A stretch of DNA of 38,981 nt, taken from NCBI GenBank assembly GCA_016235445.1, contig JACRLB010000023.1:1-38981 (forward strand), in the 5' to 3' direction. The stretch is from Chloroflexota bacterium (GTDB taxonomy: Bacteria > Chloroflexota > Anaerolineae > Anaerolineales > Villigracilaceae). The notes under the pieces are model-generated. The model was given only the letters and a program-made list of their open reading frames with translations. It was not told the DNA's origin and did not search any database. Positions 15,367 to 16,880 of the stretch are shown here, piece by piece (positions within the stretch are counted from its first letter, which is position 1; every line of letters starts with the position of its first letter). The position numbers and the translations under genes were made by a program.

Positions 15367-16445
15367 TGCCTCTCCCCCTCAACCAAATCCTCAACGGCAA
15401 TTGCATCGAGATTCTCAACGTACTCCCTGAGAACTCGGTGGATTTGATATTCGCCGACCCTCCCTACAACCTGCAACTGCAAAATGATCTCTACCGCCCG
15501 AACATGTCCAAAGTGGATGCGGTCAATAATCAATGGGATAAGTTCTCCAGCTTCGCCGCGTATGACGAATTTACCCGCTTGTGGCTATCCGCAGGGCGGC
15601 GCGTGCTGAAAGAGACGGGCACACTTTGGGTCATCGGTTCGTATCACAACATCTATCGCGTCGGTGCGATCATGCAGGATCTGGGATTTTGGATCCTCAA
15701 CGATGTGATCTGGCTGAAGACCAATCCCATGCCGAACTTCCGCGGCGTGCGATTTACGAATGCACACGAGACCATGCTCTGGGCGCAAAAGACAAAAGGC
15801 GCGAAGTACACTTTTAATCACAAGGCGATGAAAGCCCTGAATGATGATTTGCAAATGCGCAGTGACTGGGTCATCCCATTGGCCACGGGAAAGGAACGCA
15901 TCAAATCCAACGGGACGAAGGCTCATCCAACTCAAAAACCAGAGGGACTACTCTATCGGGTTTTACTCTCCAGCACGAACGCAGGAGATGTGGCGCTCGA
16001 TCCCTTCTTTGGTTCAGGCACAACAGGCGCAGTGGCAAAGAAATTGGGACGTAACTTTATCGGCATCGAACGCGACAAGAAATATATCAAGGTCGCGCAG
16101 AAGCGCATTGACGCAGTGACCCAGTCCCCTGCTGAGGCGTTGAAACTGCCTGAGAAGCGCAATCAGGTTCGGGTCCCGTTCGGGGCGCTGATCGAGAGCG
16201 GCCTCCTCAGCGCGGGGCAAATCCTATATTTCGCGAAAGGCAAACGCGAAGCCATCATCCTTGCAAATGGACATCTCAAATGTGGCAAAGTCACAGGCTC
16301 GATCCATGCAGTCGCAAAGGAATTGACGAACACTCCCGCCAATGGCTGGGATATGTGGTTTTATAAAGAGAATGGCAAGTTGAAAGCGATTGATGAATTG
16401 AGAAAAAAAATCAGAAAGACCCTCTCCCTTTCAGGGAGAGGGTAG
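15366..16445 (+). CDS. CcrM-like adenine-N6 DNA methyltransferase (GANTC type)
   Basis: A 359-residue beta-class methylase: the catalytic DPPY (31-34) comes first, then a target-recognition region, then the SAM motif '[13 protein letters not shown]' (about 212-224). The C-terminal extension '[20 protein letters not shown]' to '[21 protein letters not shown]' matches the extra domain of CcrM (358 residues in Caulobacter), which methylates GANTC. No cognate restriction enzyme is adjacent, so it is probably a solitary methylase for cell-cycle control or regulation. The last eight codons (TLSLSGRG) and the stop are encoded by the left repeat flanking the DUF559 gene. Specificity is inferred from CcrM similarity. 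Confidence 0.9.
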
Positions 16446-16457
16446 GGTGAGGGTCAA
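16419..16457. repeat. Left inverted repeat of the DUF559 cassette
   Basis: CCCTCTCCCT/AGGGAGAGGG (16420-16442) form a 10-bp stem followed by TAGGGTGAGGGTC. The methylase stop TAG (16443-16445) is inside it. The right copy at 16843 is in the opposite orientation. Confidence 0.8.
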
Positions 16458-16465
16458 AGCCGCGC

Positions 16466-16855
16466 ATGGAAAAACGCCTCCGCATTCACCCGACCATTCG
16501 CCAATTTGCGAGGGAGTTGCGCCAACCGCAAACCCCTGCAGAAGCAACACTGTGGCAGCATTTACGAAACAGGAATTTGCAGTATAAATTCAGGCGGCAA
16601 CATCCGATTGATTTCTTCATCATTGATTTTTATTGCGCCGAAGCAAAATTACTAATCGAAATAGACGGCGCTTCACATTTGGAAAAAGAGCAACAGGAAT
16701 ACGACCAAGCAAGAACCGAATATCTGGAAGCGCTTGAATATAAAGTAATTCGATTTACAAATGATGATGTGAGACACAACATCCATGCCGTAGTGACGGC
16801 GATCCTGGAAGAAGTTGAAAGCAGAATTAACGAACGGAAACACCCCTCATCCTAG
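16466..16855 (+). CDS. DUF559 (PD-(D/E)XK nuclease-like) protein
   Basis: A 129-residue protein beginning 'RIHPTIRQFARELRQPQTPA', then 'ATLWQHLRNRNLQYKFRRQH' and 'IDFFIIDFYCAEAKLLIEID'. The Asp in DFYC and the E-x-D strand are the expected PD-(D/E)XK metal ligands. 'DQARTEYLEALEYKVIRFTN' closes the fold. DUF559 is related to Vsr mismatch endonucleases; activity and substrate are unknown. The gene lies between two inverted copies of a CCCTC-rich palindrome, and its last codons (HPSS) and stop fall inside the right copy, which suggests mobility as a cassette. No clear ribosome binding site. Confidence 0.85.
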   Translation: MEKRLRIHPTIRQFARELRQPQTPAEATLWQHLRNRNLQYKFRRQHPIDFFIIDFYCAEAKLLIEIDGASHLEKEQQEYDQARTEYLEALEYKVIRFTNDDVRHNIHAVVTAILEEVESRINERKHPSS

Positions 16856-16880
16856 CCTTCTCCCCTGAGGGGAGAAGGGA
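16843..16880. repeat. Right inverted repeat of the DUF559 cassette
   Basis: CCTTCTCCCC/GGGGAGAAGG (16856-16878) is a perfect 10-bp stem, preceded by CCCCTCATCCTAG. Compared with the left copy it is inverted. The DUF559 stop is at 16853-16855. Confidence 0.8.

Follow-up and report, generated by a model that had tools for sequence, protein, structure and literature searches.

The question raised by this locus is why a small nuclease gene should lie between two palindromes at the very end of a methylase gene. The window, i.e., the whole stretch of 38,981 nucleotides that was analyzed, belongs to a Chloroflexota genome of 4.13 Mb in 55 contigs. On its plus strand it contains a gene for a CcrM-like N6-adenine methylase with a RAMA domain (gene position 15366–16445; PF01555, E 1e-64; PF18755, E 2.3e-14), which was compared with the NCBIfam CcrM model (E 7.5e-169; 561 bits, below the model cut-off of 830). 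The methylase gene is followed by a left BoxC/TM-like palindrome (16419–16456, minus strand) composed of a C-rich arm, a 5-nt loop, a G-rich arm, a 2-nt loop and a third G-rich strand, by a DUF559 nuclease gene encoding 129 aa (16466–16855, plus strand; PF04480, E 1.8e-38) and by a right palindrome with a C-rich tail (16841–16880, plus strand), which is inverted with respect to the left one. The whole cassette, namely palindrome, DUF559 gene and palindrome (16419–16880, plus strand), is missing between the methylase and PreP genes in seven related genomes. The right-hand neighbour encodes this PreP/M16C-type peptidase (16900–19809, plus strand; PF08367, E 4e-72; PF22516, E 5.2e-53), and its start at 16900 was used as the right limit for measuring the cassette-free junction. 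The methylase ORF terminates within the left palindrome, its final residues being TLSLSGRG, and the DUF559 stop codon lies within the tail of the right one. This confirms the original prediction that the palindromes flank the DUF559 gene and that the ORFs end in them. An ORF of 82 aa (DUF6922, 15118–15366) lies immediately 5′ of the methylase gene, and a RAYT-like Y1 transposase gene (19983–20657; NCBIfam REP_Tyr_transpos, E 1.7e-20, just below cut-off) was found between the PreP gene and a xanthine-dehydrogenase-like gene. The CcrM-like methylase is kept in 52 of 61 genomes of the family, where the next gene is frequently PreP, xanthine dehydrogenase or phosphodiesterase-like.

The DUF559 protein scored 131.2 bits against PF04480 (curated cut-off 20.6) and thus belongs to this family. 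The protein keeps the positions that do not vary among 40 relatives, E16, E55, D57, H61, D70 and R73 among them, so it looks intact. Modeling using AlphaFold2 led to a model of the 129-aa protein with a pLDDT of 89.3, which matched the DUF559 protein 3hrl (Z 15.4, rmsd 1.1), the EDxHD homing endonuclease I-Bth0305I (Z 12.3) and the very-short-patch repair endonuclease Vsr (1cw0; Z 10.0); a sequence profile search (hmmsearch) found 3hrl with E 3.9e-38 and I-Bth0305I (3r3p) with E 2.9e-6. The predicted structure therefore has a Vsr/I-Bth0305I-like nuclease fold, as would be expected from the relationship to Vsr-type nucleases that had been proposed for DUF559, and the protein is a predicted nuclease of the DUF559 type (YcjD-type, Vsr-like PD-(D/E)XK). 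A link between YcjD and Vsr is made in the available text of PMC1189080, and a DUF559 gene is termed an EDxHD homing endonuclease in that of one cyanobacterial genome paper (PMC9403480). Despite the common fold, the locus differs from that of Vsr: it holds a lone gene with palindromes, and the adjoining methylase is of the CcrM-like N6-adenine type, not a cytosine methylase, so that the coupling of Vsr repair to a cytosine methylase was not found at this locus.

The left hairpin is located at 16420–16442 (CCCTCTCCC/GGGAGAGGG), with the extra G-rich strand at 16445–16453, and the right hairpin at 16856–16878, with CCCCTCATCCTA just before it. When the hairpin part of each palindrome was folded as DNA, the left one reached a z of −3.45 against shuffles (0/200 as good) and the right one −3.07 (3/200). 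In the window, GGGAGAGGG with at most one mismatch occurs 15 times against 6.0 expected, a number reached in 0/100 shuffles, and GGGAGAAGG occurs 14 times against 7.1 expected (1/100). The left element fits the pattern of the intrastrand-triplex repeat known as BoxC, PIT or TMECO (CCCTCNCCC-N3-6-GGGNGAGGG-N3-GGGNGAGGG), except that its second loop has 2 nt instead of 3; the right element has variant arms. As described in the available text of PMC4666352, this repeat is present in 3,610 copies in 262 genomes and is tied to genome instability, its function being given there as unknown. Its copies are numerous, often paired and inverted, which resembles the present locus, and according to that text they show no link to transposons, phages or plasmids. 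There it is a repeat only, from proteobacterial genomes, whereas here it occurs in Chloroflexota-like and other phyla as well.

A total of 71 perfect-arm copies of the palindrome, scored on the hairpin without the third strand, were found in the genome containing the window, and the reversed control pattern gave 0; many copies are pieces of longer composite or MITE-like elements. The same genome has 7 DUF559 matches, and the repeat is thus not exclusive to DUF559. That such repeats flank DUF559 orthologues, as described below, and also occur without DUF559 fits a nuclease with many gene-less copies of its repeat.

The methylase–PreP junction was then compared among genomes. In three congeneric genomes with methylases 80–85% identical (G008, G031 and G054) and in four of other genera (G048, G007, G030 and G017), the methylase gene is followed by PreP with no cassette. 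The spacers are 72, 101, 81, 19, 90, 49 and 148 bp long, respectively, compared with 481 bp in the window; none of the seven contains a pyrimidine-arm hairpin, and an AT-rich hairpin was found in one (G031). In a fifth congener (G044) the methylase has other neighbours. The genome G050, from another genus and with a methylase about 66% identical, likewise carries DUF559 at the methylase 3′ end; the 23-nt left hairpin of its cassette is identical to that of the window and is preceded by a second palindrome. The DUF559 proteins of the window and G050 form, together with a third one (G029), a three-member clade (starred), with methylases that are far apart. Judging from these sequences, the shared site may mean that one lineage inserted there more than once, as in homing, or that an old presence was followed by losses.

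Thus, the same site is found both with and without the cassette, as is characteristic of a homing endonuclease gene. This is shared with I-Bth0305I, the nearest solved structure of known function, although the window protein of 129 aa comes without an intron, an intein or an extra DNA-binding domain, is flanked by palindromes and is a nuclease by prediction. Methylase orthologues without the cassette, which the original prediction of a mobile cassette inserted at the methylase stop had called for, are therefore available in seven genomes. The insertion-like part of that prediction stands; target-site duplication or transposition was not seen, and the sister-genome spacers are too diverged for an insertion junction or a duplication to be read.

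The physical association of DUF559 genes with palindromes was established by counting over 90 loci of the family (91 minus duplicates; partial and weak matches excluded), 87 of which are solo frames of less than 260 aa; the near-identical pairs L036/L037 and L099/L100, each from two assemblies, were counted separately. A pyrimidine-rich hairpin with a perfect 8-bp arm was found within 150 bp upstream of 39/85 and downstream of 23/84 solo DUF559 genes, and on both sides of 16/82, giving 62 of 169 adjacent flanks; many flanks (46/85 upstream) have no palindrome under this 8-bp criterion. The controls gave 2/966 for windows at least 300 bp away in the same loci, 15/2,660 for random 150-bp tiles, 0/300 upstream and 5/309 downstream for other ORFs, and, among the 29 best-scoring loci, 1/29 upstream and 0/29 downstream for Y1_Tnp genes. 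For CcrM-like methylase genes the values were 0/30 upstream and 2/30 downstream, the two being those with a DUF559 cassette behind.

The association extends across phyla. Under a slightly different stem criterion, a 9-bp pyrimidine-arm hairpin within 160 bp, the best 80 of 579 DUF559 matches showed hairpins upstream in 30/76 and downstream in 36/79 cases, compared with 8/861 for windows beyond 320 bp. These loci come from Gammaproteobacteria, Alphaproteobacteria, Rickettsiales, Bacteroidota, Cyanobacteria, candidate phyla and others, including Anaerolineales/Anaerolineae assemblies, and are biased toward the relatives of the query, since they are the best 80 of the matches. The flanks foreseen for other DUF559 genes are thus present in both sets. 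Among plasmids, 40 records had a DUF559 match, with a C-rich hairpin at two of the 3 inspected; a match was found in 3 phage records only, so phage carriage is no main route in that collection.

The palindromes are not uniform: their arms vary among DUF559 loci (CCCTCTCCC, CCCCTTCCC, CTCCCCCAWW, CCCTCCCC and others), and several DUF559 genes with different hairpin types coexist within single genomes. It was revealed that the left and right hairpins of one locus match each other, the common words being 9.13 letters long compared with 6.09 (sd 0.26) in shuffled partners (0/500, n = 47). In addition, hairpin type tracks the DUF559 clade within the family, with 10 changes versus 24.4 in shuffles (lowest 17; 0/500, n = 48). 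In the cross-phylum set, where the tree is weak and one type is dominant, hairpin type does not track the DUF559 tree (13 changes versus 14.9; 41/500). The tree and type tests used 90 of 156 rows, leaving out 43 without a hairpin and 23 with an unclassed one. At the locus under study the palindromes are mutually inverted, as first noted, with both tails toward the gene. As a rule this does not hold: over all loci, the tail points in at 31, out at 15 and is absent at 36 left sides, and the corresponding numbers for the right sides are 17, 20 and 34. A consistent inverted orientation, as in a transposon end, was therefore rejected.

One DUF559 subclade provides a stretch of about 500–720 bp that is common to different genera at 81–87% (e.g., L001 with L096, L106 and L037; L027 with L037). 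Its left end is sharp where two members, L106 and L027, have unrelated upstream DNA, and several other members of this unit appear, from their sequences, to adjoin an HsdS C-terminus upstream. Other DUF559 lineages hold one site across several genera, beside IMPDH-like or Fe-S/molybdopterin genes or before xanthine-dehydrogenase genes. At L036, L099 and relatives, the cassette lies between an HsdS-like C-terminus and a further HsdS-like fragment, and its gene contains an in-frame TGA.

Repeat load was compared among genomes in several ways. From the cross-phylum loci, 50 of the 80 were picked by flank type and re-classed by script into groups of 21 and 29 genomes: in those with an CCCTCTCCC hairpin at the DUF559 flank, the median number of copies beyond the locus is 24 (n = 21), compared with 0 (n = 29; 12/29 genomes nonzero) in those without it (p 5e-5). 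In the 61 genomes of the family, the 12 without DUF559 have at most 4 palindromes and the 49 with DUF559 have a median of 19 (p 3e-5); this set provides 4 phylogenetically independent pairs only, and all informative ones agree (p 0.25). As this comparison is phylogenetically weak, it was widened to 297 genomes of the class, each at least 90% complete, where exceptions emerged. At least 5 CCCTC palindromes were found in 53/104 genomes with DUF559 (E ≤ 1e-20) versus 18/151 without any match (p 9e-12), and in 37/84 versus 18/148 outside the family of the window (p 7e-8). Within-family shuffling gave 34.5 expected against 47 observed (0/5,000). The exceptions are 11/151 genomes without a DUF559 match that have at least 10 palindromes and 51/104 with DUF559 that have fewer than 5. 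Thus, DUF559 and repeat abundance go together across the 297 genomes, also within families.

The same relation was looked for in Escherichia coli, where ycjD is a DUF559 gene and was found in 3,365 of 5,426 complete genomes; its occurrence in phylogroups A, B1 and C is given in the available text of PMC12817139. The ycjD status of two strains from different phylogroups was set against published TM counts, namely 29 copies in 55989 and 1 in IHE3034 (available text of PMC4666352). The strain 55989 has ycjD and IHE3034 lacks it at the sapF-fabI site, which agrees with the prediction (n = 2). Like the window gene, E. coli ycjD has BoxC-like hairpins nearby, one at its 3′ end and a second roughly 180 bp beyond; these are degenerate or farther off, though, and the hairpin upstream is AT-rich and unrelated. 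For the DUF559 protein NGO0050 (3hrl) of Neisseria, two BoxC-like hairpins follow the gonococcal domain at distances of 185 and 299 bp, i.e., also farther off.

All these observations allow us to assume that DUF559 proteins probably act on the palindromes. With slightly less confidence, we favour the reading, looser variants included, in which small mobile cassettes combine BoxC-like palindromes with a nuclease dedicated to them, DUF559, and move by palindrome-directed cutting and copying. DUF559 nucleases would then partner BoxC-like palindromes as RAYT transposases partner REPs. The nuclease would recognise the palindrome that travels with it, as duplex, hairpin or triplex, and cut at or beside it; repair could copy the palindrome, or the palindrome and the gene, into the break. 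Such cutting would drive the spread of the repeats, gene-less palindromes accumulating in the genome through this copying, and the DUF559 gene itself may spread like a free-standing homing endonuclease gene.

Another source of movement could be a RAYT/Y1 transposase or replication-repair slippage, with DUF559 genes merely caught between the moving palindromes. A RAYT-like gene does lie 3 kb from the cassette, its score being below cut-off, Y1_Tnp genes are present in 60/61 family genomes and their density shows a weak correlation (rho 0.31, p 0.014) with generic palindrome excess. However, Y1_Tnp genes are not themselves flanked by the palindromes (1/58 sides at the 29 best-scoring loci), and neither clade-specific pairing nor a cross-phylum tie to one gene family would be expected of a random passenger, which makes this explanation unlikely. 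Slightly less likely again is that DUF559 serves as a resident nuclease for repair or defence, the palindromes being its autoregulatory or recognition sites and the cassette not moving by itself. The hairpins do lie just beyond ORF ends, several cassettes hold one site across genera (e.g., with IMPDH-like or Fe-S/molybdopterin neighbours), and the available text of PMC12907096 connects VsrA, a DUF559 protein from Caulobacter, with the response to DNA damage. Such a fixed role agrees poorly with gene-less copies in tens per genome, with sister genomes that lack the cassette and with the unit of about 500–720 bp that is similar between genera while its surroundings differ.

The position behind a methylase gene brings to mind a restriction–modification pair, and in 6/52 family genomes with the CcrM-like methylase DUF559 does lie downstream of it at no more than 3 kb, with Methylase_S (6), N6_N4_Mtase (4) and TaqI_C (4) among 80 upstream neighbours. 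Nevertheless, one of the six is a partial match 3 kb off, 46/52 methylases have no DUF559 nearby, so that the linkage is not stable, and most DUF559 neighbours have no relation to modification; the linkage is partly a common insertion neighbourhood before xanthine-dehydrogenase genes. These neighbour surveys disfavour methylase–nuclease pairing as the main function, and we consider it very improbable. Even less credible are transcription terminators or other ordinary hairpins that adjoin DUF559 by chance: gene-end hairpins are common and such a role is supposed in the available text of the Enterobacter 638 genome paper (PMC2869309), but the flank controls (distant windows, tiles, other ORFs and methylase genes) speak against it, hairpins also occur upstream of DUF559, and work cited in the available text of PMC4666352 saw no terminator activity.

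Compared with known systems, the partnership of DUF559 and palindromes resembles that of REPs and RAYTs (REPtrons), where, according to the available text of PMC3733652, dispersed palindromes likewise flank a dedicated enzyme gene. The enzyme here is a predicted PD-(D/E)XK/EDxHD-type nuclease versus a Y1 tyrosine transposase there, and a constant GTAG tag is not found; with Y1_Tnp genes flanked by the palindromes at 1/29 loci upstream and 0/29 downstream, the cassette was not assigned to the REP–RAYT systems. The main text of PMC4666352 contains 0 mentions of DUF559, endonuclease or ycjD, and a literature search for DUF559 or ycjD with palindromic or triplex repeats, in which subscription papers were thinly covered, found no report of a link. 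BoxC/PIT/TM repeats, known since the 1990s, have had neither a function nor a mobilising enzyme assigned to them, and DUF559/YcjD has been a nuclease with no assigned substrate. If the favoured reading is true, BoxC-like repeats would be the substrate of DUF559, a nuclease directed by structure or by the palindrome, and each would gain a testable role. This long-known, unexplained class of bacterial repeats may owe its spread to the DUF559 family as its missing partner; the family would be a second enzyme class, beside RAYTs, making palindromic repeats in bacteria, and would account for the genome instability reported around triplex motifs (available text of PMC4666352). The most far-reaching version, about which we are more sceptical than confident, is that DUF559/YcjD and BoxC-like triplex/hairpin repeats could constitute a novel class of mobile DNA that spans phyla: the Vsr-like nuclease would recognise the structured repeat itself and copy it genome-wide, every DUF559 clade would have a palindrome of its own, and the BoxC repeats found in E. 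coli and elsewhere would be gene-less offspring.

Several minor features were also found. A MITE-like element at 34640–34840 of the window has outer inverted repeats around GCAAAGGTTGTCAG and a degenerate CCCTC palindrome inside, and its relatives are present at L014, L015, L016 and L018 in the same genome. In that genome, intact and broken DUF559 copies are clustered at G000:C11:275346-279151 (L023), one with an in-frame stop, along with split pieces. Finally, at L053 (G035:C17) and in other frames of more than 600 aa, DUF559 is located at the end of very long ORFs; at L053 palindromes flank the DUF559 domain inside the open frame, which suggests a palindrome-linked gene fusion.
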